A stretch of DNA of 64,000 nucleotides, from positions 248,001 through 312,000 of the forward strand of contig NGBS01001161.1 in NCBI GenBank assembly GCA_002245135.1. Direction: 5' to 3'. The notes beneath the pieces are model-generated. The model saw nothing but the letters and a program-made list of their open reading frames with translations, searched no databases and was not told the DNA's origin. Below are positions 2,975-64,000 of this stretch, piece after piece. The translations under genes and the position numbers were made by a program. Within the stretch, counting starts at the first letter, position 1. The number at the start of each line of letters is the position of its first letter. The DNA comes from Proteromonas lacertae (lineage: Eukaryota; Sar; Bigyra; Opalinata; Proteromonadidae).

Positions 2975-5900
2975 TTAAAGTGTATAAACATCTACTAATT
3001 CAATTTCTTGTTCTTCTGTATCTTCAAATACAATAACTGGATATATTCCACCTACTGGCAAATCAGTAATGAACGAATCAAAATTCATATCACCAATAGT
3101 AATACACATCACTTTTCTAGTCATATCATACAATATTTCAACTGTCTTTCCTACTTCTAATTTCGGCATTTTCCTCATTACACCCATACCACATCTATAA
3201 GCGATTCCAGTACTTCCTCTATATACAAATAAATTATCAGATGTAGGAGGATGTGAATCAATAATAGGTAATAAAGCAGCACCAAATGAGATTAAGTTTC
3301 TACCTCTGATTAATTTATACTTAACACCAATAACTTCATCTTTCAATTCTTTATGAAGACATACATATTGATTCACTGCATGTGTTGATTTGCCTTTACC
3401 TCTACTAGTTACATGTCTTCCATGTAAATCAATCAATGGAGTACGATATTTTGGAGAGAAGAATACTATTAATAATAATAATATATATACTTGAATTTTC
3501 TGGTAAATTGTCTTTTATTGCTGGTTGATTATTGACTATTGTTATAACTTCTTTTACATCCATCAGTGTTAATGGTATTGTTTTAGCTAAACCTGTTAAT
3601 GGCTGAGTTTCTATTAAATAATATATATATATATATATAAATACTATCAACAACAGTAATTGATATATTTGTACAACATGAACCATATTCATTCGTAGCT
3701 GTAACAACATATTGTTGAATATCATGCTTTCTGGGAGCTCCAGTAAATACACCAGTTTCTTCATTGAATTCTAAACCATCATCTAATTCAGGTTCAATCT
3801 TATAAACTGTTGGATTGTTAATAACTTCAGGTTTGATTGGCTCTATTTCTTCATCTGAGAATAATGTGTATTTTGATTTTGGATATTGAAGTTTCTGTGG
3901 AACTGGTACTTCCACAACTTCAATAAATAATTCACAAGTTCCTTTACCACTTTCATTAGCTGCTTCAACGATATATTTAGTTTTATTAGATAATTGTTGA
4001 GGAATTCCACTTATTGTACCATTCTTTGGATCTATTTCAATACCATTTGGTAATAATGGAGAAATAACAAATGCATCAGCTCCATTCTCTAACTCAGGTA
4101 CAATATCTTCTTCTATATTCATATTCAAATAAAAAGTATATTCTTTATGAGGATAAACTATATTATGTGGTTTTGGAGTAACTATTTCTATTGATAATGA
4201 ACATTTTATCACACCAACTGAGTTACTGGCTGATATATTGTAAACTGCTTCTTCTTTTTCAGCCATTGGCTTTCCACTAATAATTCCACTAAACGAATCC
4301 ATTTCCAATCCATCAGGTAATGCTATTTATATAATAATAATAAATCTAATACGAGGAGATATTGTATAAACTGAAGCTGTATGATCAATCTGTGGTTTTA
4401 ATGGAGTAATATCTTTATTCACAAAGAATGTGAATTTATCACCACCATATTTCAACATCGTTGCAGCAACAGCAGCTATTTAATATATATATATATATAT
4501 ATATACTATCAACAAAGAAGGTAATTTTAGTTTCACATCTTCCTTTCTTACACAATGCAGTAATAGTATAATGATATTCACCAGAGAGTGAAGTTCTACC
4601 TGAGAATATACCAGTATTAGGATTGAATTTCAAACCATTCGATATTTCAGGTTCAATAACAAACTGATCAACATTACCTAAATAAGAAGGTTTTATCTCT
4701 TTAACTCCATAATATAATGGTAATCTATATTCATCTTGTGGATATTTTAATCTGATTGCATATGGTGGTTCTAATACTTCAAATGATATTTGTGTTGTAT
4801 CTGATCCAAATGGATTACTGGCTCTTATTGTTAATACTGTTTTAGTCATTGTTTCTTCAGCAACTCCACTAATTTCACCAGTTTCACTATTAAATGTCAA
4901 ACCTTTAGGCAAGCCTGGTACTAGTAAATATTCTAAAACTGGATAAGTAACAGTTGGAACAATATTATCTACTTTAGCATCTAAATAAAATGAATAAGAT
5001 GTTTGTGGATATTTCAAATCCTTTGGAGCTAATGCACCACATACATATAGATTTATTTCTGTTGAAGATTCACCAAATGTATTTCTACCTGTTATTGTAT
5101 ATTTCACATTATCTACAGACATCATTGGCCTGCCTAATATCTCACCTGAATCTTGATTTAAATATAAACCTTCACAAAGACGAGGTGTAATTTCAAATTC
5201 GTGACAATTCAATACATAAGGTACAATAGGTTTCATTTCTGCTTCTTGTTCTATCATATATACTTTTCTATCATATTTAATAACAGGTAATAAAGCTATA
5301 ATAATAATAATAATAAATCACAAAAATATACTTTTAGTTTGAATTCCATGTTCAAATTTATCTAACTCATCATTAGTACTTCTAACTACAGAAATAGTTA
5401 AAGAAGTTACAACAAATCCAAATATATTCTTTGCTTGAACAATATATGTTCTAGTAGGAGATAACTGTGGAGTACCTGATAAAACACCTGTTTTTTCATT
5501 GAAATATAAACCAGCAGGTAATTCTTTGGGGGAAATAGAAAATGAATCAGCATGACCTTTATAATTTGGTTTTAATGGAGTAATAACATGATTAAATATA
5601 AATTCTGCTTTACTAGGAACATATCTAAAATCAGATGGTGGTGCACCTTTCACTTTAATTTGAAATTCATATGGATAATACTCTTTATGATATTTCATTA
5701 CAACTTTATATTTAATAGATGGTTGTATTTGTACAGGTGTTCCTGATATAACTCCTGTTTGTATATTTAATAACAATCCATCAGGTAAAGATGGTTCACA
5801 GAGAAATGTTCCTTTTTCACAATTAGTTTCAGGTGTAATTGGATCAATTCTTTCTCCAACATAAAACTTGTATTTATATTCTGAATAACTGAACTTAATA

Positions 5901-21141: not shown

Positions 21142-24100
21142 ATGGTTTTTAAGATTATATTTATATTGTTATCAATATATTTTGATGTTGTAGCAGCTGA
21201 TACAGAGTCATTAGTTATTGGATATTTGCATCGAGGACCTACAGATACTTTCTATAAAGAATTTTTTGAGAAACTAATAGAAGATAATAAAAACGATATA
21301 TCTCCCAGCACTATTACTTATAAAGAGTTTCCTGTGGCTAATGATTTAAGTGATTTAGATGCAAAGCTCCAAGAAATAAAAGAAACCGAAAACCTATTAC
21401 ATGTATTTACTGATGATACAATATATGGCAAAACTGATGAATTGAGTAATTACCCATGTTATTTTTGGATGGCATATCCACTTGCTCAGGAGAAATGTTC
21501 CAAGAATGTAATATATTACAGTTCATTTGTTCCTATGATGATTTCATGTATTTATATTATATTTATAATATAATAGTTGGTCAAGCATTTGTAAAAAGAT
21601 TCCAAGATCCTAGAATCAATGTATATATCGTTGAAGATGATAAGAATAATGTTAAGAACAATAATGTATATGATATGATGAGTGGTAATATCAGACATTA
21701 TGGATTTAACTCTGTATTTGATATTTTACCTGAGAATTTTGATGCAAATATAACATCAATCTTATCAAAGAATGAAAAATCAATATTCTTGTGGGTAAAT
21801 AGAAATAAAGATAAAATAAAGAAGTTTTATGGTGATGCTAGTTTTGATTCAACTAAACATATTGTATATTCATTCATTCACTTTGAAATTAAATCAATAA
21901 CATCTCCTGGAATAAATACATTAAAAAATCTAAAAGAATCAACTCAAATGTTTACTGTTTATATCAGGAATGCTACAATGTTTGAAGCTAACATTACAGC
22001 ATTAGATTCAACAAGACAGTTTACATATACAGATATTATGTTTTACAATATGTTTAAACTTTTATTAAAAGGTTTTAAAGGTCATGACAATTTTGCTCCA
22101 CTTGCATTAAGTTATGAAATATACTATAAACATTATTATGATTTAGAATCAGGTGCTGTTTATCCATTACCTCATAATTTCATATCAACTTCATATTATC
22201 ATGTATCATTTAAAGATAAAGGTGATAATGATAATGATGATTTAGATGTAATACATGAATATTTACCAAATGTTTATTTTGACCCAAAAGAACAAATGGG
22301 TAATGTTCCTTTACAGCATTGTAGTTGGCAAGCAAATCCGTTTACTGGTAACGTCAGCATTAGTCCTGTTGTTGTTTTGTTCTTAAATCCAAATAGTGGT
22401 GAGGCAAGTCGTAACAGTGTATTGTCTATACTTTATTTATTATATTGTTAATAGCAATCATTAAGTGATTTAGAGACAGCAGTTGTTGATCATATTAATA
22501 GACAAGGAGGAGTACTTGGCACTTATATTCGTGGGTATGTTATTAATACAAATATACCTTGGGAAGTTTTGAAGATAAAAGTATAAATAGTTTATATTTT
22601 TTAAATAATTATAGCTAATTGGATTTTATAATAGATATAAAGTTCCAATAATGTTTCAATCGTCAGTAGGAGAAACAGCATCTAAGATACATGACTGTAT
22701 GAATAATAATTCTATTATTTCATTATAGTATCAATTGAGCTAAAATGGGAAAATATTTTTTTATATTTGAACAATATACCTCGTGCTCAGTGTAATAATT
22801 ATGGAACATTCTATATTGGAATGTCTGCTTCAGTTGTATCGAAAGCATTAGTTAGTCATTATTTAGAGGAAAATATTAATTCAGTTTTTATAGTTGGAAC
22901 TACAGAAGAGTATCATTTATTAATTGTATTTATATCATTGTTTAGATTTTCAGTAGCTTTATTAGATCTATTAAAAATAAGATTGACAGAATATGAAATA
23001 TTTATCGAATCACAAGCAATAATGGCTGCTACTGATCTGGATAATGGTATTGTAATAGCTAAAGCAATCAAGAAGTCTTATCCAGATGGTGGTTATGTTA
23101 TTAATGCTGCATCAAGTTCATATAATCAATATTTATTTGAAGCATTGAATATTGAAGGTGTAAATGAGACAAATGGTTATTACATTTATAATGTATTTTT
23201 ATCTGAACAAGATGTTACTTATTTTAGTAATTCAAATGTATAATGATGTAGTTATTAATATTAAATAGTTGACTGGATTTTATTCTCTTGGATATTATTT
23301 TGATTCAGAAAAAATACCATCAATGGAAGCAATAAAGAGTAGTTTATATGATAAAGACTATAGATTAACATCAGATTTAGTTATTGCAAGAAATGCAATT
23401 GAAATGGTAAAACAGATAATTGTTAATTCTGGAATATATAATAAAGCAACACTTCAACAGTATATATATTTTATTAATCTTATCATATTCTGTTTATAGA
23501 TTTATGTTTTCTCAAACAATAACCGATCCAAGTATTTACAGCATTGAATTTTCTGGTTTTGCCAGAATGAAAATAAAAATATATAAAGTGAATTATTTAA
23601 ATGAATTTGAAGATGTTTATACACCAAAGTTTACATTTTATTCAGATTATGCTTACCCATCAAGTTATGTTTGTTCTTGGAAAACTAGTATACAATTATA
23701 TTAATTTAATATTATTTATAGCTGAAAGTAATGGACTTAGTAAATATAATTTAATGGTTTTTGGTAGTATTTATGATAGAACAAATCCAGATCATATTCC
23801 ATACATAACACAATTAACTAATATTGTAGAAGCAGTTAATTCACTTGAAGTATGTCCTGATACAGTTTTCCATATTTATCAATTCAAACATTTAGATGAT
23901 GATCCATATAAGAACTATGAACTAAACATTTTTGAAATGGTTCATAATACTTATAATAATTCTGATCCAATCTTTCTTGGTATCTTTGGAGGATATGATG
24001 GAGAAGAAATTGAAAGAATTGAACCATTATTAAAGAAATTTAATTTGTTATTCTTTGATTTACATCCTCATTATGGTGAAACATGTAATTCTCAAGTTGT

Positions 24101-27100
24101 TCATGTTGGAGGTACTTTTAATCAGTTTGGAGAATCCCCTTTAGTATTTGCTCTTCAAGATACAGAATTAGTTGCTATTTTTACTGATAATTTAGAAAAT
24201 AACATACAAATATCAAATACAGCTGTGAATATGTTAAATCAGTTTACTACTACAGATTATTTTAATGAAACAATTTTAGATTCAACTAATTGTAGTATTT
24301 ACAATTCTGTTATTGATGAATTTGATGGGAAAACTGCAAGTATATTTATATATATGAATCAAGAAAATGCAGAGAATATTATATTGAATTGTTATTCATA
24401 CAATCCCAATATTGATGTATATGTGTTTGACATATGGGATCAAACTGTTCATAAGAATCCAGACAAATGGAATGGAGTTTATATTATGTCTACTTATCTT
24501 ACATCACTTAATAATACAGAGAATCGACAATACTTTATATTATTATCGAGTAAGATAGGTAATCCGCATGATTTTATAACTCCATTTGTAGTAAATGTTT
24601 ATGATTCATTGTTGTTTTTTAGAAAAAGTGGAGATTTGGTAAGATCGCTAATTGAGAAAAACCAATACTTGAATATATTATATAATACAGAAATGTCATC
24701 AATTTATGGACCAACATCATTAGGTAATAACAATTATTTGGACAGACCGATATATATAACGCAGATTGTGAATTGTACAAACTGTGAATATGGTTTTTAT
24801 CATGATACTATTTATATTAGTTCAACATCACTCAAAGCAAAACCTTATGCAACATATGTATATATTTTTGTTATTTATATCTAAATATAGAATAATGATA
24901 ATAAATATTATGAATGTAATTTTGTTGATAAAAATGTCCAAGAGAAAAAAGATATAGACACTTTCAATACTGCATTTTTGATTGATAAAAATAGAAGATT
25001 AGAATCTTTTGGAATATATGGATTGTTACTAACTATGATTCAAGAAACTAATACTGATGGAGGAGTAAGAGGCAAACAGATTTCACTTATTGCTAAATCA
25101 TGTCCAGTTGCTGATGCTTCTGATTTATTTCTAAAACTTCAGTCAGAAAATGTAAGATATGTATTTAGTATTTGCTCTCAAGAATCATTTGAAATTATGA
25201 GAGAACCCATTAGTTTATTAGATATTATATTCTTTCAAGCTGGTAGAAATTATGGAAAGGAATGTGCATATAATGTTATAATGCTTGGCACAGCTGGTTA
25301 TCAAGAAATTACACCATCAATTGTGTATTTAATCAAGGAATATAGGATGATAAATGTTATTTTTATATTCAAAACTGATAAATATAGAGCTTCAAGAATA
25401 AGTCTCATTAAATCAATATCACCTCTTACTACATTTTCTAATCCAGTTTTTATTGAAATTTCACCTGACAATACAACCGATGAAAGAAATGATATTCTAA
25501 GAGATGCTGTTAATTCATTACAACAGTATCCAAATAAATGCTTAACTATTATGTTAGTAGATCAAGATGATTTAGAACAGTATTCTGAGTATTATTACAA
25601 ATTATTTGGAGGAAAACCAGAAACATTGAAAACTGCATTACAAACATTTCCCGTAGTAGTAATGACTGATTTAAGTGGTATTTTGAATAATCCACAATAT
25701 TTAGAAGGATATAGGATTATATCTTCATTTGCTGCTACTACTAAAACAGAGTTTATTGGTGATTTTATTGATACAGTTGGATCTCATGTAGATAAATTCA
25801 TTATTCCATACAGTATCGTTCAGGTGTACGATGCATTTATGTTATTGACTTATGCAATACAAAAAATAGAACAAACTACTGAAGACATTGAAAAGATTAT
25901 TGACCAAATAAAAGAATATGTGCTAACTGGTGTAACTGGATATTCATATATTGATGATAATAACCATCTACTACAGCAGATACTGTTTAGTACAATTAAA
26001 GATGGTATTGTTGATGATCCAATACAAATATCTGAAGTATATCCATCTCATCCTTTTTACACTGATTATGACTATGAAAGAGAGCTGAGATGTGTAGGAT
26101 CGAAAATTATTGAAATTCCTTCTATTGTAATTGCAGTGTTTGTGTCTATAACCGAAAGTGAGATTGAGAAAAACTTGCAAATGATAGAAGCAGCAATGAC
26201 ACAGTTTGAAACTACAAGTTTAGATTTATATGGATATAATCAAGTAATATTGTTGTGCGATATTAAAGGATATTTGGAAGTAATGGGAAATTACTGTTTT
26301 CAATTTGCAATGAAGAAGAATGCAGTTGCTATTGTAGGAACAACATCGTATTTATAGTATGTATTTATATATCGAATAGATCTGAGCAACTTGAATTCTT
26401 TGCACCTCTATGTGATGAATATGATATACTCTATTTTGTTCCTTTTTTAACAGAAGGTAAACAGTGTTATAAGAATACTATATTTTTAACTCCTCCAATA
26501 TCTGCATATGTATATTTATATGTAATTATTGTTATATAGAATACTCTCTTTTCTATAATAACTAAATCATTTGATATGGATACAGTAATGGTAGTGAGTA
26601 ATTCACAAAATACAAAAGAAATAGCAAAATATATAGAAGTTGAGTTAGCTTATCGTGGTTTAATTATTTTAAAAGTTTATACAATTCCATACATAAATGT
26701 AGATTTAGATCCAATAGCAGATACAATTAAGAATGATTTACCAAATGGAGGATTTGTCATTAATCTATTGGAAAATGGTCCTGCACTTGAGTTCATAAAA
26801 GTTATGTATAAAAAAAAACTTTATTACCCTGACTATAAGATAATGTCATTCTTTGTAGATATTGATTCGATAAGTAATGAAGAATATGGAGAAGTAATGG
26901 TGAATCAATATTTTTGGAATAGTTATAATCCATTTACAATTGAACCACTTTCATCTTATACATTATGGTATGAAAAAATATTTTCATTCAGAGACTACTA
27001 TTCATCAATGGCAACTGCATCTTATACTTCACTATCTATAATAGTATTAGGATTAGTTAATGTAGATGAAATTACGCCCGAAAATATAAGAGTTTTATTT

Positions 27101-30100
27101 CAAACACATTATATTACTTGTACATATGGACAAATTAATTTAGCAAATACAAATATATTTGATGTAAATATATATCTTTCGCAAGTTATTATGGCTGACG
27201 ATGGTAGTTATTCAGTTTCAAATGTGTATCAATCTATTCTATCAGGAGTTCCAGAGGCATTGCAATTCAATCCAAATTTTTATGAAACATGTAATTTTGA
27301 TGAAAGATATGGAGATATTGGAAGACAACAATATTACTATATTAAAATAGGAATTTTACTCTCAATGAGTGGTTATGATAGAATAAATGATGCTCCATTG
27401 TTGGAAGTTATACTAGGATATTTTAAGTATATCAATTCTTTAACAACAGTTCATGGTTATAAATTATTAACACTTTTAAAAGATTTGAAATCTGATGTAA
27501 ATAATGTACAAGATGCAATATATGATTTAATGGATAATTATGTGAATATTATAATCGGTTGTACAGATAGTGATTGTAAGGATAAAGTACTTGAAGAAAT
27601 ACACTATGATGCAACTATAATGTTCTTTTATATTGGTAATTCTAATGGAGAAGAATGTTATACAAATGGTTATTTTACTGGTCATTTACCCAACCAATAT
27701 GTTACTCAGACGATTGAATATATTATAAAATCAGATTTACCTCAATCATTATTAATAGTTGGAACAGAAGGTTCATCTTTTTCTATGCAGCTTGCTGCAA
27801 CAGTAGAAAGTACAGCTGGTGCGTTATTATTTACATTGCCTGTAGAACTGTTAGAATCTGCATCTACGTATAATGCATTTTTGTACAATTTACCTTCTCT
27901 TTGTCCTGATGCAGGTTGTTGTATTATATTAACAAGTGATGTGAACGATGCAATCCAATTTATTAATGATTTTCATTCATCGGAGATGTCTTCCACTTTA
28001 TACCCAATTTTTACATTAACATTAAATTTGAATAATGAAAAATACTTTATAAATAATAATTTCAGAGATTTTTATATTCCAACAATCTATTCTAGTTTAG
28101 CAGAAGAATTTTATGATAATCGTAATGTGAAAAATAAGATTAAACACTATGTTGGATATGAACCAAATGATGCAATAATTCAAGCTTATTATGCTGCGGA
28201 TATATTGACTAATGGTTTTATAAATGCTCCAAGTTTAGCTCCCTATGTGTTTGACGAAGAAATTGTTGATTATCCATTACAAGGTCCATTAGGAAGTTAT
28301 TCTGTTCATAAGACTCATTATGTTGATCATCCTTATATATTAGTACATATCAACTCAAATGGTGAAGAAGAATTAGTTACTTATTTCCTTGAGACAATTG
28401 TACCACAACCTTGGAATTGGATGATAAATACAGAATTAGGTAAATCTTGTTCTTTTAGAAGAGGTTCGACTGCATTTATTACTACAGAGAAAGTCTCTAC
28501 ACTTACTTCATTTATTAATATGGCAGGAGAGGATGGTGAATTGAATAATGGTGTATCAGAAGCAATAAATGCAGTAATTGATAGTTATAATGCTGCAAAT
28601 GGAATAAATGGATATACTATTGTTCATTATTTAACTGCAGTTGAAAATGCAGAAACTGCAAAGAAGTATATAGGTGTAATAGAGAATAGTATTAACAATC
28701 ATGCTGATGATATAGTGCCAATGTCGCCATTAGTATTGATAAGTGTTGATGATGATAGTCGAGATGCAATTTATAGTAAAATATCAGAATTGAAAGGTTT
28801 ATTGGTTGATGTATCAATGTCAGTTCCAAATTATTGTGAAAAGAGTGTTGTATCTGCAAGTTTAACAATTGGTTACTATGATAGATTATTGGATATTATT
28901 ATTCATAGACATTATCCTGGTTTTGCAATTATCAGTGAATTAGATAATGTAGCTTCATCTTATGTAAAGAAATACTTAGAAAGAAAAGGTGGTAGTGTAT
29001 TGATGGTTTATTATGATGAAAATAACTTGAATGTAATTGTAATGTCATCTTTATTACATACATTAAAATCTCAATTCTCTGAAGGTTGTTTAATCTTTTT
29101 AGGTAAATCAAAATATCATTCTTTATTAAATGCAGGAATGATAAATACTGAATTATATGAACCAAAATACCATTTAATATCGTTTACAAGTGGTGGTGAA
29201 ATAGTAGATTCAATCGAGAATATATTACCATTTGAAGCAGCTGGTGCTTATTCTCAATCAATAAGTCGAAATGAAAATACTGAATTTCTAAACCGAATGA
29301 AAGCCTATTACACTGGTTCAACATTTTTGAGTGATAGAATAGCTAGAACTTACTCAGTATTAAGTCTATTGTTTGATTCAATGATAAAAGCAGGAACAGT
29401 AAGTGATTTTTCTTTGATAAGAGAAACAATGTATCATACCAGTTATTCTGCACCTGAAGGTGTATTGACATTATCTGAGAATAATTATCTAACTCGTGTG
29501 AATGACATTATCAACATATGATCCTTCAAGCAAAACATTTACTCTTGTTTATTCAACCGAAACAGCAGTTGAAGGTACAGCTTGGATAAGTGATGGTAAA
29601 GTAGAGATAAATTCATGTAATTTTGTAGATTTAAGTATAGGAAAAAAGAAAAAAGAGAAAACAATAAGTGTAGTAATTCCAGTTGCTTTAACAGGTGTTG
29701 ATCAAAAAGATGAATTAAAATTATTAGATTCAATATTACTAGCAATTGATGAAATAAATGAGAATGGTGGTATTTTAGATAATAAAGTAATAGCTGATAT
29801 AAGAGATACAAATTCTGATGAAGCAGAATTCCTTAGTATAGTTGAAACAGTGAAAGACACAGATTCGAAGTTAATAATTGGTGGAATAAAGAGTGAAGTA
29901 TATTCGAATGTTGGACCAAGAGTTGATAAAGTTTTATACATATTCCCTGGTTATAATCCAGGTGAAGTATGTTATGAAAATGCTATATCAGTTAATTTCA
30001 TGTTAAATCAACTAAGAAATCCATTACAGATTTATTTATACAAAGAAATGAAGACAATCTTTATAGTTTATGAATCAAATGAAATAAGTCAACAATGTCG

Positions 30101-33100
30101 ATTAATGGTAGGAAAACTAATAGGTGAATCTCATTTGACTAGTAATGGTCAGACATTATTAACAAATAGTAATATTCAAACATCAGTGATGTTAATGCAA
30201 AGTAAATTATTAGATGGTGGAACAATAGTAAATTGTCTATCTTCTTCAATAACAGTTGATCTTATGAAAGAAATGTGTAATCAGAATTTATATCCACCAA
30301 CTTATACAATAGTTAGTTTATTCTTCCAAAATCATTATTTAGATGATTTAGGTAATATAGATAGTAAATGTATAGCAAATCATTATGTAATTTCTTCCTT
30401 CTTTCCTTCTTTATCTGATGACTCTTTCATCAAAAATAACAATCTCATCCACTTCTTTGAATGGATTTGTGAATAGTTTAGGTCAAAGAATAGGTTGGAA
30501 TGAGAGAATAGAATCTTATATGGAAGCAGCCTATTCTTCAATGATATTATGGGCTGATGCAGTTCAGAAAGCCTATACATTTGATTCATCTTTAATAAGA
30601 TCTGTAATGTATGGTAGAAAATATAATTCTCCTTCTGACTTTTTGATAATATCGAATAATAATGTAGCAAGTCGAAGAATATATACAGCTTATATAACAG
30701 CGAATAAAGATTTGTATGTAGTTGAAGGTCCAGATGAAGCAATAACACCAAATGTGTATAGTGATATAAACGCAAATGGATTAGCTAATCATTATTGTGA
30801 TTGGTCTAGTGCAAATGGTGGGAAATCTTTTAAGAAATTGAGTAAGAATATTTTAATGGTTCATAATACTGATGCAACAGATCAATTAACTGATTTATAT
30901 AGATCATTAGCTGAGAAGGTGTATATTGATGCAATAAATCAAGATGGTGGAATATTAGGTTATAATCTAATAATCATTGATGCTTATTTAAGTGTAAATT
31001 CAGGTGAAATGAGAAGAAAAATAAAGAATATGATAATAGATAATGATGTAGTTGCTGTATTTGGATGTTCTTCAATATTTTGCATTGATGTAATGGAGTG
31101 AAGTAGCGAATGATTTAAAGATATTATTCTTTACAACTCAATCTGATGATGGTACAATATGTTCTCCATACACAATTCACACTGGTCCATCTATTGAGCA
31201 AATGATGTATCCTTTATCTACATTTATTCCTACCGTTCAAGCAAAAGCCATATTTGTGATTACTTATCCTCTGGATGCAATGATATACAACATAAATGAA
31301 TTATTGAGTGAAAAAATAGATCTTCCATTAGCTGGTGCATGCCTTTATAAAGAAGGAGAAACTGTATCTAGTAACATTTTCGATTCTTGTATGTCTGATT
31401 TGAAAAAAGCTTATACAAAGTATAATAGAGTATTAGTTTTTGCAATTGTCTATTCATATGAGTTATCAGCTTTTATTAGTGCATTAAAAAAGGATAACAT
31501 TTTAATGGAACATATCAAGATTGTGTTTTTTACATTTGAAAGTTTTTATTTCAATGATGATGATTTAGATTATATAGATGGAAATTTCATTATTACACCA
31601 AGTGGAGATGGAACTCAGAATACAGTAGCTTTATCATTCACAAGATTAATTCAATCCAATTTAGGATCTGATTTCCCAATAACAGCAACAATGACATATA
31701 TGTATTCTGCTCTACAATTATGGAAAGCAGGAATAGAAGTAGCAACAAAACAAGTGAATGGAGAATGGCCTGGAACAGAATATGTAAGATTAACAATGAT
31801 AGGTCAAAGAGCAAATACTCCAGGTGGAACAACAACAGTAAAATCATCAATGTATACAACACAATCATTCTATATAACCGAAATTGTCAGTAAAGAAGAA
31901 TCATTAATATATCCTGCAAAAGGAACTGTGATAGAGACAGATCCGTTATTAACATATAATGGAACGTGTGAATTTGGTATTTCAAGAAGATTGTTTTCAT
32001 ATAGCGAAGAAGAAAGAATAGCTGTATATGTAGTGGCAATCGCTATTGCAATATTTTGTGTATTTGTATGTTATTTCTTATGGAATTATCGTGAATTGAA
32101 GATAGTGAAATTTGCCTCTCCATTGTTTTTGTTTTATTTGTTAATTTCACTGTTCCTATTAGCTGTTGAAGGTACTGTATTTGTGTTTGAACCAACAAGT
32201 GATGGTTTAGTTTGTGCTTTTAGAGTTTGGGGTCTGGCATTAACAGTTGATTTGGTATTTAGTATTATTATAGCCAAAGCTTGGAGGATTCATAGATTAT
32301 TCAACAATAAAGAACTTAAGAAAGTATAATACACTATTACAATTGTTATTATTAAATAGATTAATATCTCGAATGGATCATTATTGAAAGTTATATTTGT
32401 AGTTTTAGGTGTGCAAGTGATATATCTTGGTATTTGGTGGTTAGTAGATAGATCAAAATACACAGAAACTTTTAGTCCATCTTATTCATCTTTCTTTGAA
32501 GATGTATATATTCCTGAATGTACAGAAAGTCAATACTTTATTTACATTCAAATTGCTGTTGTAGCAGTGATGTTTGTGTTTGGTATAAGATTAGCTTGGT
32601 CAGTAAGAAAAGCTTCAAAAGAGTTTAATGAATCAATCACCTTAGCTTCAACATTTTTGATTATGTGTATGAAATATATTATTCTAATTTTTATTTAATA
32701 GTGATTATTGGTGTTATTGATATACCATTGAACTTTATATTATCAGATAGTCCAAATGTATTAGTGTCATTAAGAGCATTTGGAGATGAATTAGGTGTAA
32801 TAATCATTTTATTAATACAATATTTCCCCAAAATCTATGCAGCTTATACAACATCATCTGCTATTGATACAATGACACTTGAATCAAGTAAAAGCACAAA
32901 TACCACAACTCAGTATAATTTTATCATATTATTAATAGGCAAACAAATAAATCGAATGGATCTATATCAGAATCAGTGAATGTTGCTCCAAATCAAGATT
33001 TATTAGTAAATAGAAGTGCTTCAAAGAGGATGAGTTTAGATCAAAGAGGCAGTCAAATATTTAGTGAAAAATTCAAGCAAAATCCTGATCATGATGATAT

Positions 33101-41749: not shown

Positions 41750-44700
41750 TTAGAAAGACATAGATGTGCCTACATGACTCTCATCATCAGACTCTTTATA
41801 CTCATCATCACTAATTGCATTGTATTCAAACTTTATATTCTCCAATACTTTCTTATAATACTCAGCAAACAATTTAGAATAGCTTGGTGGAAGTAGTTCA
41901 ACACATTGTTGGAACAATGAATCTGCATGAGGTGTTTTCAGCTGTAAAGCAACACATAATGTCCTTTCTGCAATAATCTTAGCGGCAGTAGGAGATCTAG
42001 CAACATCAAATAACACAGGGAACGACAACTTTGTAATATGGAATACCTTCATCTTTTGGTGTTATTTTGTATAATCTTTTAATAGTCTTTAATACATTCA
42101 CTACTGTGATATTATCTTTTCTTGACTTTCAATTCTTCTTCCATATTTGGTAACAATTCCCAAATAAAACCAATCCAAGTTGGATCTCGTTCTTCTTGGT
42201 GTTTGATTGCAGTAACTAAACAATAAATACTTTCAGAAACATATTGTTTAATTGAAGTATTTTCATTTTGTAAAGTATTTTTAACAAATGGTATAATTGA
42301 TGATATATACGTTAGTGCTACTAATTGTGAATGATGTGCTATGGATTTAATAGTCATACATCTAAAATATTACATTAAAACATATATATATATATATATA
42401 TATACCTTCCCAATAATGTATTATCATTGCTATTATTAGTTGAACATAGATAATTAATTGTCGATTGTTGAACTTCTGGTTTGCATATACTAATAGCAAT
42501 ACCAATAATTGAACTTGATAATCTTTTAACTCCTTCATTATTGTCTGATAAATTGTCTTTTATTGTTGTAATCAATTCTTCAGCTACAGGAGTTGAGATT
42601 GTTGATTTTGCAGATAATAATGTGATTCTTATACCACGATATAATGCTTCTTTAATCTATTCATTATATAATATATAATATATAATATATACACTAACAT
42701 CTTTTGCTGTTTTTAAGTGAGTATTTAAATCTTTAATTAAACTTTCATTTCTACTAGATATCTTTGTTAAATTCTTTAATGTAGTTAAACCATGTTGTCT
42801 AACAGATCCATGTTCATTCTCTAATGCTTTAATAAGAACTGTATGTAATTGAGGAATGAATAACTTAAACACAGTTTCATCACCTTTATCTAATAACTTT
42901 GATATATCATCAATTAATTCACATTTCAATGTATGTTTAAATCGATCATTTAAACCTCTTATTAATGTGCCAATTATCTTTCTACAGAGATCTTGATTAA
43001 TGTTATTCTTTGTACTTAACGTTAAAATATCACCTAAACATCCAGCTGCTTCTGATCTGATTTCTTCTGAAGTTGATTTTAATCCATGTTGTAAGAAATT
43101 CCAGAATGGATTTGTTTTGAAACTCATTGTAAATGCTGGAATTGTGATTGAATCAGCTGTTAAATTCCTATTAATATTTATTTATAATTCATATATAATT
43201 ATACTTTTGTCTGATTCTTCTACCAACTAAAACAATATCTTGTCTTATAACTGATACATATTTTGACATTTCTATTTCTGTAATTGATTTGACCAAACTG
43301 TCCATTGCATCCCAAGCAGCTCTAATGATTTCTTCTTTTGGATCGTTAAATGCTTCAATTATACCTTTACTAAATATGGCAATCTATTCATTATTATTAT
43401 TATTATTATTATATACATTATCATGGAAATCTATCTTTGTATGTTTGAAATATTCAGATAATATTTTCATAGCGGTTAATCTCCATCCCCAATTATCTTT
43501 AGTAGTAAACTGTATAATCTCTGGAATAGTGACATGTAAACCATTTGATTTAACACTCACTAATACAGTCAATATACAATTTTCTAAAGCTTCTGTTAAT
43601 TCAGGATCAGACTATTAATATCATATATATATATATATATATAATGTAATTATACACAATCTGTTGGTTCTATATCCATTGGACAACCTCTTAATGCAGT
43701 GAAGAAATCAGTAAATATTTTACAAGTTGAAAAATGCAATACTGTTCCACAAACATCCACTATTTCACCTAAAGCTACAACATTCGCCTTTTTCAATGGT
43801 TTAGATAATAATTCATCTAAAATAATTTCAAATGCATTCAATTGTCTTGATAAAATACCTTTTAAACAATTAGTACCTCTTCTAACTAGTTTTTCATCAT
43901 TACTATTAATTTGTTCGATTGTTTTGGGTAATAACATCTTCAAACAATCATTTCCTACTGCATTGTATAATTGACTATATGCTATTGATGCTACTGATCT
44001 AACATCATAATCATCATCACCTAAGGCACTTTCTAATGGTTTGATTAAGTTACTTAAATATTCTTTCAATTGTCTCTTTGGACATGCTTTTATAATTTCA
44101 CTTAATCCCATACATATGCCAGTTTTCTTTCTGCTTTCTTGATCTTCTGTTAGTTCATCTTCTAATAATGGAATAATTGTCTGTAATACTGAATCTCCTA
44201 ATTTGGAGACTACATCTCCTAGACATTTACCTGCTACCACTTGTAATTCTCCTTCTATTAAGAATTGGTCGTTTAATAGTTGCAATAATGTTGGTAATAT
44301 TGATTTTAAGGTTGCTGGTGTGTTGTAGACTATAGATTTCCATATTTGTAAAGACTTTTGTTTTACGACTGTATTAATATCTGAGCGTATCATATATAAG
44401 CAAGATAAGACAAGATTGTATTGCTTTTCACCAAGGGTTGATTCTATTAGATTTATTTATAATTCATTGTTATACTCAATTGTTTACATGTATTAGCATT
44501 AACAACATATTCCTCTTCATCATCTTCATCATCACTATTTTCACTGATTGACTTATTTCCACTTAATTTTGATCTAATTCATAAAATATTAAAAGAATAT
44601 ATTAAATATATACAATAATTGACCTAATAATTGTACAGCACTTTGTCTATACCTCCAATTTTCAGATAATATGTTTGATAAGATAGGACTTAATAAAAGC

Positions 44701-47700
44701 TTGGTATTTGTCAAGCCAAACTTGTTGATCAAAGCTTGACCAGCTTTTAAGCTTACATTACTAACAATATCAGTTTCATCAGATAGATCTTGAATAATTA
44801 CTGGGAATATGATATCAATAGTATCAGCGATTTTTTCACTGATTACATTTGGTAAATATGAAATGAACCACATTACACCTTCTCTGATATAAGGCTTAGG
44901 ATGTGAAGCAGATACAATAATCTTTGATAATAGTGTAATTAATCTATCATATCCTAAAGCAGCTAATACTTCAGCTAAACCTAATGCACTACCAGAACGT
45001 TCGGCACTATCTCCTTCAGAGCACATATGTGTAGTTAACCATTCTATTAAATCAGGGAATTCTTCCTCACCAACACCTTTTACTAATTGACCTAATGCAT
45101 GTCCTGTCTCTTTTCTTACAATTGGGTCATGATCTAATAATGCATGTTTCAATGGTTCATTTAATATTGGAATATATGGAATAACTGCTGCTGGATCTGA
45201 TAATGTGCAAATGCTTCCAATAATTAAGCATGTATTTTGTTTAATAGCAGTTTTTCTATCAATCAAACCTCTTTGTAATAATGGCATAAGTAATGACAAT
45301 GATGCTGCATCTATTTTATGAATAAATGAAGTTGAAGTTAAAGATTCTAATGCATCACCAGTCTTTTCCATTGGATCATATAAAGCTTCTAATATTTTAC
45401 CAGAAACAGCACTAATTTCAGGATTAGTAATGACTTTAGTAATACCAGCTAAAGCTTCTTTTGCAGCTTCTCTAACTTTAGGATGTGAATCAGTAAAACA
45501 AGTGACTAATTTTGGTACAATCTGTGGTAATGATGATGATAATGATTGTGGTGAACAATTACCCATTGTACCTAGTGTATTAATAGCAGCAACTTTAGTT
45601 CTCCAAGCTGGATCACTTGTTAATTCAATCACTTTTGGTAATACTTGTTTAATACAATACACACTCATATTCTTCATGATTTCTTCAGATGCACTTTTGG
45701 CTGCTATTCTTACATCTTCATTTACTTCAGAAAAACCTTTTAATAAGTCTTTTAATATAACAATGACATAAGGATCGAATTTCTTTTTAAACATACGTGA
45801 TAAACATTCTATTAATAATAAACATCCTTCTTTAGCTTCCCAACTTTTACCTTCAAAAGCTCCAGTTATTTTATTCATAATATCATATTTCTTTAAAGAA
45901 GGAATACCAAAACCATTCAACAAACCTGCAATACCATTAGCAGCACCTAATCGATGGCCAAATTCAGGATTTGTCAATAATGTGCTGAATAAATCATCAA
46001 TTATTTCATTACCATTCGAAGTAACATAAGAAGTTCTTGCAATACTTGTCATACATTCAGATACAGCAGATTGTACTGATTCTGAAGGAGTATATAATGC
46101 ATTTAATAAGATCTTAAATATAGATTCAATCTATAAAATAATAACCATAATAATATACTTTTGGATCATCTTTTTCCATATACTGTGTTATTGATCCTAA
46201 TAATACAACTGTTCCTTCCTTTTGATTATCTTTAATAATCTCATCTTCTTCACTCTTTATTGCTTCTAATGAATCTTCAAATATACTTACAAATGTTTGA
46301 CAATAGCTTGATCCATATGTTTTAATAATATCTAAACCTGCATTTAATGAGTTTAATCTTACATTTTCATCTTTATCTCCAAATCCATTGATTATTATTA
46401 TATTCATTATTGTTTGTAGTTGTTCTATTGTTAATATATTTGATTCTACTTTACCAAAACCATTGAATATCTTCATAATGCCTATTCTTGTATTGATATT
46501 ACCTTTTATTCTTAATCTTTCATTTGGTTTTGATTTTATATATAAATCTTTTAAATTGTTTATTATGTCATTAATTCTATTCGGATCATTCAATAAACCA
46601 GCAGCTAAAGCATAACATGACATTGTCTGAATAACACTCTTCTCATAATCAATATAATTCATTAAAATGTCAATATAATCTTCAGGTAATTGACAATTGA
46701 GTTTATTCCATATTTCTATAGCTTCAGTCTTATTATTTTCATTACTATCACATGTTAAGATATAGAAAATAGTTAATAAATTTGTAGGAATTGAACCTTC
46801 AATATTTTTAATCATTACTAAAACTAATGATCTTACATAATCATATACTGATAAACATCCATATTTAAATGCATTTATATCACTTTCTTCTATATTTTCT
46901 TCACTCATTAAATCAGTTAATAATTCAGAAAGAGATGGTTTTATTTGTGGTGCAATTTCATAACAGTGTAATAATAATAATATAATATCACCTCTTATAG
47001 GTAATAATGAGTTATTATATCCTTCATCTTTTATTGAATTTTGAATTATATTTTGATAGAATAATACGATAGAGTTAATATAAGGTAATGGTGGATCATA
47101 TAATGAAATATTATTAAATAATATATTCAAAATAGACACAACAGGTATAGAAATAATACAATCTTCTTTATTCAACATCTTTTCAATTGAAGTGACTATT
47201 ATATTTCCTATATCTTTCAATATTGGAACATTTTCACTTATTCCTGGATTAATTATACTTTGTAATATACAATATGATAAATCATAAGAATAATTATTAA
47301 GTGGTGAAGGTAATGACTTAATTAAATACTGTAAACAGTTCATTCCATATACTCTTGATAGTGGATGTTTTAACCAATTATATAAATAATCCTTATAAGT
47401 AACAAAGAATTCTAATCCTTCATATGAATTTGACTTTAATAAATGTGAAAAACCAATCATTCCAGATATAAATGGTTCTACTATTACTTTCATATCATTT
47501 CTTAATTGACTTTGCTCTTTTAATTTCTCTTCTTTTTCTAATTGAATTTTCTTTAACTTTTCTTCAACCTCTTTTTGCTTCTTTATTTCCATCTCAATCT
47601 GTTTCATTCGTGCTTTTTCAGTCATTGGAATGTTATTATTATTGTTATCTTTTGGAATGTCAATTTGATTTTGTAATGATGAATAATAATCATCTTTATC

Positions 47701-61802: not shown

Positions 61803-63415
61803 ATGTATCGATTGAATTCAATATTTCAATCTAAAAGAATAAATAAAATATATAAAAGAACTTATTATGATATTGAAAGTGTAGGACCGTTGAAATCAAA
61901 TCCAAAGAAACATCCTATTACATGTAATTTAACAGATATAGATAAATTACTTCATAGTGATATGAAAGTATATGTAAAATATGTAATGAATAGATATCTG
62001 TAGGAATTGCAGGAGGGACTGCTGTTCCATTAGTTAATTATATTACAAAGGTATTATTAATATATATAATTTATGAATAATAGACAGTTGCTAATAAAAA
62101 CTTTAGGAATATTGAATTTATGCATTTACTAACAGCAGGAAGTGTACCATACACTAAACTTGAGAATACTCACAAGTTTTCTACACGTTGCTTTTATTTA
62201 GGTCAAAATATGAGAAAACCAATAGAAGAAGGAAATGCAGATTATGTATATATAAATATGCAATTAATATTATATTAATACACAGTGTCCAATATTTTTC
62301 AGTGATATTCCAAAACTGTACAGAGAGAAAATCATTCCAATTGATATATGTTTAGTAAATCTAAGTCAACCAAATGATAATAACTATTGTTCACTTGGTG
62401 TGTCTTGTGGTGAAACAAGAGCTGCAATTGAATCTGCAAAAGTATATTATTATAATATATATATATATATATCAGTAGATTGTAATAGGAATGATAAATA
62501 AAAAGATGCCGTATAGTTTTGGTGATAGTGAAATTCATATTTCTAATATTGATTATTTAGTGAATATAGATGATGAAATAGAAGAAATAAAACTTCCTCA
62601 AATAACTCCAGAATCCAGAATAATTGCTAATTATATATCAGAAAAACTTATTGAAGATAAAGCTACACTTCAAATCGGTGTTGGATCTGTTATAATGGCA
62701 TTAATGGAGAATTTGAATTCATTTAAAGATATTGGAATTCATACTGAAGTATTTAGTGATGGTTTAATACCATTGTATAATAAAGGTATTATTACTGGTA
62801 AATACGTATAAATATATATATCATTTATCTCTATTTATTAATAGAAAACTGTGGATAATGGTTTAATAACAACGACATTTGTAAAAGGTAGTAAAATGAT
62901 GTATATATTTTTATAATTATTTTTTTATTATTCTATTGCATATTAGATATGACTTTGTTGATAAGAATAAAGATGTTATTGTTCGAGATGTTGCATTTAC
63001 AAACAATCCATTTGTTATAGCGAACAATTATCATATGATATCAATAAACTCAGCAATTGAAATAGATCTAACTGGTCAAGTTGTTTCAGATTCTATAGGT
63101 AGTTATATATACAGTGGAACAGGAGGACAAGTAGATTTTGTTTATGGAAGCTCTTTATGTCCTGCAGGAAAGTCTATCATAGCTATGTCGTCTTGTACAA
63201 AAAAAGGTAAATCAAAAATAGTCTCATGTATTGAAAAAGGAGCTGGAGTTGTAACAACGAGAGCAAATGTGAGATATGTAGTGACTGAATATGGTATTGT
63301 AGATCTTTTTGGTAAATCGATAAGTGAAAGAGCTAAATTACTAATAAGCATTGCTCATCCTTCTAAGCGATCAATTTTATATGATGAAGCACATAAAAAC
63401 GGTATAATTATTTAA
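61803..63415 (+). CDS. Acetyl-CoA hydrolase/acetate:succinate CoA-transferase family protein
   Basis: Members move CoA between acetyl-CoA and succinate (ASCT) or hydrolyse acetyl-CoA. The basic N-terminus MYRLNSIFQSKRINKIYKRT looks like a mitochondrial presequence. Family blocks in order: VGIAGGTAVPLVNYI, LLTAGSVPY, FFSDIPKLYREKIIPIDICL, LGVSCGETRAAIE, RIIANYISEKLIEDKATLQI, HTEVFSDGLIPLYNKGII, MISINSAIEIDLTGQVVSD, SGTGGQVDFVYG, VTTRANVRYVVTEYGIVDLF and IAHPSKR. Six introns join in frame and length is about 450 residues, typical for the family. Together with the PDH subunit and SDHAF2 in this window it suggests acetate formation coupled to succinyl-CoA turnover, as in anaerobically adapted protist mitochondria. 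Which sub-type it is cannot be judged here. Two TCAAGC copies (61757 and 61767) precede it. Confidence 0.88.
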
Positions 63416-63528: not shown

Positions 63529-64000
63529 ATGGGCATTTTAGTAGTTTTAAATATTTTATTATTTATTCCTGCTTTTGTTGGAGCAAATTTTGCTGTGATT
63601 ATAAGAGATTCAGCTCAAATAACTTTTTATGAGACATTCTTTCGTTCTCTAGCTGGTGACCCAACTGTCCAGGTTTTTGCTTGTGATAGTGGTTTAGATG
63701 CAACTCTAAATATATTAAAGACTGGTTTATATCAACATGTTTTCACAGATGATTGCTTATACGATATGGTAGATGATCTAAAAGATTACCCATGTTATTT
63801 TTGGATGGCATATCCACTTGCTCAGGAGAAATGTTCCAAGAATGTAATATATTACAGTTCATTTGTTCCTATGATGATTTCATGTATTTATATTATATTT
63901 ATAATATAATAGTTGGTCAAGCATTTGTAAAAAGATTCCAAGATCCTAGAATCAATGTATATATCGTTGAAGATGATAAGAATAATGTTAAGAACAATAA
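63529..64000 (+). CDS. 5' part of a second class C receptor gene (runs off the window)
   Basis: A new signal peptide MGILVVLNILLFIPAFVGAN is followed by the start of a periplasmic-binding-type ligand domain (FAVIIRDSAQITFYETFFRS, HVFTDDCLYDMVDDLKDYPC). The first 85 residues are clearly related to, but diverged from, the receptor gene at 21.1 kb. From 63785 onward the DNA is identical to that gene, including a 29-nt intron at 63884-63912. Upstream the two genes share TTCATTCGTTA-like sequence (63501-63511). The gene continues past the window, so domain number and membrane part are not visible. TCAAGC is at 63488-63493. Confidence 0.85.
63785..64000 (+). repeat. 216-bp direct repeat, copy 2 (second receptor gene)
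   Basis: Identical to 21449-21664 over every base to the window edge, intron included. Immediately 5' of 63785 the two genes share protein similarity (HVFTDD) but differ at many bases, so the boundary is abrupt. Confidence 0.95.

Follow-up and report, generated by a model that had tools for sequence, protein, structure and literature searches.

The window examined here, 64,000 nucleotides in length, covers positions 248001-312000 of contig C1155 (NGBS01001161.1) in the Proteromonas lacertae assembly (50.2 Mb, 1181 contigs, GC 26.7%). Two receptor genes lie on its forward strand. Gene A (21142-32870, the second figure being the end of its alignable part against B), delimited by its gene model, cysteine motifs and Pfam matches, encodes nine tandem modules of about 350-395 aa and a class C type seven-transmembrane (7TM) domain. 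The 5' end of gene B (63529-64000) is delimited by its gene model and by the A/B alignment, for which 28 kb of the contig downstream of the window were added; B extends past the window to approximately 75155-75190 in window coordinates (C1155:323155-323190). The two genes share one orientation and are 42.3 kb apart, other genes occupying the interval; both gene models are split by GT..AG introns, mostly of 26-40 nt. An exon for the C-terminal part of an acetyl-CoA hydrolase (E 1.1e-58) at 62936-63412 ends about 110 bp upstream of the B start codon. A HEAT-repeat exon on the minus strand (44592-46052) has a 95% identical match (P0001) from an 18-contig source, so that close relatives, or the same organism, are present in public data.

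Judged by sequence, the A and B proteins look like class C G protein-coupled receptors (GPCRs), with nine modules at flytrap spacing followed by a GABA-B-like 7TM domain. In B, the nine modules (353-394 aa, each ended by a short cysteine motif) lie upstream of the 7TM domain, and the gene model places about 3,450 aa N-terminal to it. The cysteine motifs that end the modules in A are located at 22314, 23666, 24909, 26085, 27287, 28445, 29613, 30793 and 31964, and the A exons contain Peripla_BP_5/6 and 7tm_3 Pfam matches. When five stretches of the A receptor were scanned, Peripla_BP_5 was above its cut-off in three and 7tm_3 in one other; the 7tm_3 match at 31202-32326 of the window reached 69.0 bits and that in a piece of the family member L021 reached 134.4 bits, the curated cut-off being 33.5 bits. 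A match to Pneumo_M2 was below its cut-off and was taken as spurious. A profile made from modules D3 and D6-D9 recovered D5 (E 1e-11), D4 (E 1e-8) and D2 (E 2e-4); D1 had no significant match to this profile, and it is therefore counted as a module by spacing alone. In a relative, P713, seven Peripla_BP_5 stretches were found within the 2366 aa tested.

The last module and 7TM domain of L021 were also compared with proteins of known structure. By phmmer, the flytrap part resembles a bacterial urea-binding protein (PDB code: 8hic, E 7.3e-16) and the 7TM part a GABA-B receptor (PDB code: 7ca3, E 1.9e-15), and the best Foldseek match of the predicted fold (mean pLDDT 74, 18 sequences) is again a GABA-B receptor (PDB code: 7c7s, E 4e-27). 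Among the 50 Foldseek matches listed, TM-scores by query length are low (0.31-0.35) and rmsd exceeds 24, which is understood as a difference in how the two halves are arranged, the fold match resting on the parts. The venus-flytrap (type I binding protein) fold that marks a class C GPCR is found both in the Peripla_BP_5 matches and in the predicted fold of L021. Searching the genome with 7tm_3 gave at least 132 matches, at least 123 of them above the cut-off, counts that take in copies resembling haplotypes, genes that are split and frames interrupted by stops. With two receptor pieces as queries, protein searches returned none at E <= 0.001 among the candidates scored, and the family was not recognised among the open-licence PMC papers listed.

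The original prediction concerned a 216-bp tract common to the two genes, and the identity holds base for base: 63785-64000 in B equals 21449-21664 in A, the preceding base differs between the copies, and both carry a 29-nt GT...AG intron (21548-21576 and 63884-63912). Divergence just upstream was also borne out, as the coding start at 21142-21448 is only 54% identical to that of B (136/253) and the N-termini differ; by eye they resemble the signal peptides that formed part of this claim. Once the locus is extended past the window, the exact run grows to 331 bp (21449-21779 and 63785-64115), 115 bp beyond the end of the tract, and the genes can be aligned over 11.7 kb. The 216 bp are merely the portion of the exact match that fits inside the window. 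The assembly holds at least two exact copies of the tract and, on contig C994, at least one 90-bp match of 77% identity.

Plotted along the two paralogues, identity alternates, and the tract proves to be part of one of ten high blocks. With a match scored +1, a mismatch -8 and segments of score 30 or more kept, ten high blocks of 39-2396 bp alternate with nine low blocks of 57-70% identity, all on the forward strand. In A coordinates, high block H1 (21449-21972) is identical at 522 of 524 positions and is followed by l1 (21973-22252, 68%). H2 (22253-23683, 1431 bp) has 59 differences, mostly in two sharp pockets at 22739-22817 and 23407-23454. A diverged stretch (23684-23889), made of two parts each 68% identical, surrounds an exact block of 39 bp (23757-23795). 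H3 and H3b (23890-24244) comprise 247 bp with three differences and 68 bp with one, separated by a 40-bp pocket of 70% identity. The diverged middle (24245-28513, 64%) contains the end of D3 and modules D4-D6, and two introns (33 and 32 nt) of the A model there are absent from the B model. H4 (28514-28634, 121 bp, three differences) and the pocket l7 (28635-28793, 57%) precede the longest block, H5 (28794-31189), whose 2396 columns contain seven substitutions and four 1-base length differences. Pocket l8 (31190-31546, 62%) is placed in the last venus-flytrap module, in its second lobe. H6 (31547-31929, 383/383), l9 (31930-32068, 63%; stalk and TM1), H7 (32069-32137, 69/69) and l10 (32138-32175, 58%; TM2) follow in turn, and H8 (32176-32870, 692/695) covers TM3-TM7, the start of the C-tail and two introns.

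The distribution is bimodal: among 235 windows of 50 alignment columns, 105 are at least 96% identical, 108 are below 80% and 22 are intermediate. At the block edges, silent sites and introns switch together with the coding identity, as the prediction had stated for its tract. Tracts are flanked by diverged, still homologous, in-register sequence at the inner edges and at 21449. Past the last block, at 32870, homology is no longer clearly alignable and the C-tails differ. The outer flanks of A and B are unrelated on both the 5' and the 3' side, and the A/B identity begins and ends within coding sequence.

A third full-length paralogue, C (contig C994), is 65% identical to A and to B and serves as a reference. 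For summed classes, the two H2 pockets, the stretch around the 39-bp block and the 54% coding start were counted as low. In the high class, A and B agree at 5769 of 5803 positions (99.4%), and each is only 71.5% identical to C (A/C 4068/5693, B/C 4071/5692); in the low class the values are 63.6% for A/B (3682/5791), 57.8% for A/C and 58.2% for B/C. Four-fold silent sites, counted in eight A exon stretches that skip 22455-23721, everything after 32323 and three short gaps, and hence most of H2 (with its two pockets) and most of H8, are identical between A and B at 448/453 in high blocks and 153/271 in low ones, and between A and C at 165/294 in high blocks, with a chance level of 0.42. Introns within high blocks are identical or almost so. 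In the three-way alignment with C, the longest A=B run spans 171 variable sites, the maximum in 2000 column shuffles being 25; runs above the 95% level (18 sites) number 21 for A/B and one each for A/C and B/C. The longest exact runs are 707, 583 and 408 bp for A/B and 80 bp for each of A/C and B/C. Chance is thereby ruled out as the source of the A/B identity, and purifying selection is ruled out by the silent sites and by C, which is so much less similar to either gene in the same blocks.

Uneven constraint could account for part of the contrast between high and low blocks, since l8 and l9 sit at the least conserved places of an alignment of 18 family members over the last module and 7TM domain. 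Mean pairwise identity in this alignment is lowest in l8 (0.25) and l9 (0.27); l10 (0.40) lies between the lowest and highest values of four converted segments taken for comparison (0.37, 0.39, 0.49 and 0.53). For H1, constraint would be insufficient, as this block is 55% identical to C and 99.6% identical between A and B.

A second subfamily, represented by P713, Q140 and R802 on three contigs (about 11.8 kb each), shows a similar mosaic. P713 and Q140 are 60.6% identical in the first part (2796/4616), then 76% over 1.3 kb with short high blocks, and then 97.2% over 4.3 kb. Of the 86 windows in this last block, which ends near the 3' end of the gene, 74 are 96% identical or more and three are below 80%. 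The P713/R802 pair has 97% identity over 10.5 kb, a few pockets and unrelated 3' flanks. R802 (L058 and L039) has a frame change at about 4300 and an in-frame stop at about 9667, where P713 is open. L020 and L021 were compared over the final 2.5 kb of their coding sequence, where they differ at 150 positions: 79 belong to a diverged C-tail, 25 to a single 60-bp pocket and 20 to three small clusters, and the other 26 lie outside these. An allele-like contig, L022, has 30 differences from L021 in this part and leaves the edges of the 60-bp pocket against L020 unchanged.

A pairwise survey was made of 31 loci, namely the best 30 7tm_3 matches (including A and C) and B, with 2.3 kb each. An exact 60-mer is common to 23 of the 465 pairs; these comprise the two groups with a mosaic, pairs that look allelic, older relatives in which the runs are isolated, and a single set of 5'-truncated copies. 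Most pairs are without sign of recent exchange, and several of the 23 are allele-like or truncated copies; L016/L017, L025/L026, L027/L028, L029/L031 and L030/L032 were not counted as mosaics, being judged allele-like, duplicate or truncated copies. The first three of these are near-identical copies with unrelated 3' flanks. In L017, the receptor is cut at 2223 (gene orientation) inside the 7TM region and joined to DNA unrelated to L016. In L025, the 3' flank from about 2734 (gene orientation) is unlike that of the 99.8% identical L026 and reads like what we take to be a Tc1-type transposase. L030 and L032, compared with L029 and L031, are a receptor on two allele-like contigs cut at the same 5' point, with near-identical sequence after it; in L029/L030 this sequence continues into a downstream gene, presumably kinase-like.

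Of the three origins that the original prediction had offered, gene conversion gives the best fit. A and B are very probably old paralogues in which repeated, recent, non-reciprocal conversion between the loci overwrote about half of each gene, in at least ten tracts. The runs of identity are longer than the overall A/B divergence predicts, and silent and intron sites within the tracts are homogenised like coding sites, both as inter-locus conversion would have it. RNA-mediated copying is disfavoured, as introns within the tracts are identical or almost so, and exon shuffling is not suggested, as the distance to an intron edge is 10 bp or less for 3 of the 24 edges of blocks and pockets. The second option, a swapped 5' end after recent segmental duplication, is contradicted by the nine low blocks that alternate with the ten high ones and by the unrelated outer flanks, which also rule out a recent duplication of the whole gene with its surroundings.

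A proposed course of events can be described as follows. Starting from two old members of a large family, whose giant receptors are class C GPCR-like, homologous repair by strand exchange may have copied segments of one gene into the other without crossover. Its repetition would have produced the ten or more tracts, with D4-D6, TM1, TM2 and a single lobe of the final flytrap left untouched. Non-crossover conversion appears to be the simplest process because the genes share an orientation and have other genes between them, which points to the absence of crossover, and because the tracts include introns and are in register. The spared segments may stay diverged since they are too different to pair, since selection keeps the difference, or both. 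Exchange seems to halt partly where family members are least alike; this leaves unexplained H1 and H2a, whose distance from C (55-57% identity) matches that of the spared middle (57-63%). The conversion reading draws on one genome and a single assembly.

The same pattern of identity with pockets would also arise if a whole gene had been duplicated recently and diverged segments had then been imported into one copy from family members or old alleles, and for P713 and R802, with 97% identity over 10.5 kb and a few sharp pockets, import is the better fit. For A and B this course is improbable. Their unrelated 5' and 3' flanks, the beginning and end of identity within coding sequence and the two introns of the diverged middle that only the A model contains all speak against a fresh duplicate. 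Moreover, a donor search of the assembly, which skips common words, with the middles of A and B and l8 of both as queries found none above 76% (70 bp in C) and otherwise 63-73% among the matches listed; there, the middles and l8 match only each other (67-73%), and the middle also C (63-76%, in pieces). Old paralogues that were partly overwritten are therefore favoured over a fresh duplicate with imports, since no close match was listed for the diverged segments searched.

Two further explanations turn on the four 1-base length differences. These are the only ones in the high blocks, to which the count is confined; they fall in H5, at A 29501-31095 and in the matching part of B, and break the frame three times in A and once in B. 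A consensus in which two similar genes were partly merged by assembly or polishing might leave such errors in a 2.4-kb block where short reads presumably could not be placed. Nevertheless, such an artefact is highly improbable as the origin of the mosaic, and the assembly chimera of the original prediction is unlikely, because about 20 in-register switches would be needed inside one contig, with low blocks preserved beside near-perfect ones. Single-base differences are preserved inside the high blocks as well, and a similar mosaic is found on contigs C713, C140 and C802, with C667 repeating the main pocket of C140 with the same edges in the last 2.5 kb. Alternatively, A or B, or both, may be decaying copies that serve as donor or recipient of sequence, like the silent copies of antigenic variation. 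This idea, which is compatible with conversion between old paralogues, is possible if somewhat doubtful: the frame breaks, the frame change and stop of R802 and the existence of truncated copies (L030/L032) agree with it, but the A/B breaks all lie in the one block where base errors are expected, frames are open over long exons in the diverged middle and the nine modules of A and B are in step. In that middle, 645 of 1302 amino acids and 112 of 205 silent sites are identical, a contrast that may reflect constraint. Residual base errors are likely at the four differences, since they fall in the longest block, where short reads are not uniquely placeable; decay is possible.

On the protein, the shared blocks take in D8 completely, most of D2, D7 and the 7TM domain, about two thirds of D9 and roughly half of D1. 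D4-D6 are diverged throughout, and diverged pockets cover TM1, TM2 and one lobe of D9. In the L021 model, the pocket for this lobe, l8, maps to residues 228-348, a run of helices and strands that we interpret as lobe two of a type I binding-protein fold. The suggestion that exchange could shuffle ligand domains is plausible and calls for one amendment: D4-D6 and one lobe of D9 stay diverged. It is conceivable, though unlikely on present evidence, that the family acts as a segmental repertoire generator, with conversion holding selected flytraps and the greater part of the 7TM signalling domain uniform between paralogues, and with defined units for ligands or gating (D4-D6, the last flytrap's second lobe, TM1/TM2) excluded from exchange. 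If so, each receptor would combine shared signalling parts with private sensing parts.

The A/B pair allows the control of tract edges to be asked about, as a matter of pairing failure or of selection on function. Receptors with nine flytrap-sized modules and a GABA-B-like 7TM domain, whose family numbers over 100 matches, are relevant to the origin and elaboration of class C GPCRs outside animals. GABA-B receptors (7c7s, 7ca3 and other solved structures) rank first in structural similarity to the last module plus 7TM domain of L021, and match the 7TM part by sequence; however, they have one flytrap instead of nine, and by sequence the present flytrap is nearer to urea-binding proteins of bacteria (8hic). 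In anaerobic gut fungi, 24-51 class C GPCRs per strain were counted by transcripts, with N-terminal parts of 200-1600 aa of which about half have type II binding domains and, in the available part of that source, none an ANF domain (PMC5168858). That family is likewise large, belongs to a microbial eukaryote and has binding domains of bacterial type, whereas the modules of A and B are of the Peripla_BP_5/6 kind and, in the gene model of B, about 3,450 aa lie N-terminal to the 7TM domain (compare PMC5168858).

Gene conversion has been described for related situations. In Plasmodium falciparum, the surface-antigen paralogues DBLMSP and DBLMSP2 undergo conversion, seen across many isolates, and the accessible part of that report proposes that conversion abruptly creates deeply diverged lineages (PMC10919680). 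As in A and B, segments are exchanged between diverged surface-protein paralogues; unlike the antigens as presented there, A and B come from one genome, are GPCR-type receptors and have at least ten tracts in one pair (PMC10919680). In the fish OlfC (V2R-like) receptors, conversion events were detected by the permutation test GENECONV (PMC6588630). This is also a large class C GPCR family with conversion established by permutation, but it is a vertebrate one, and the available sections of that paper describe no alternation of perfect and approximately 60% blocks along one pair (PMC6588630). Overall, conversion in receptor and antigen families is already known, and at least ten alternating near-perfect and approximately 60% blocks in one gene are an unusually clear case of it.
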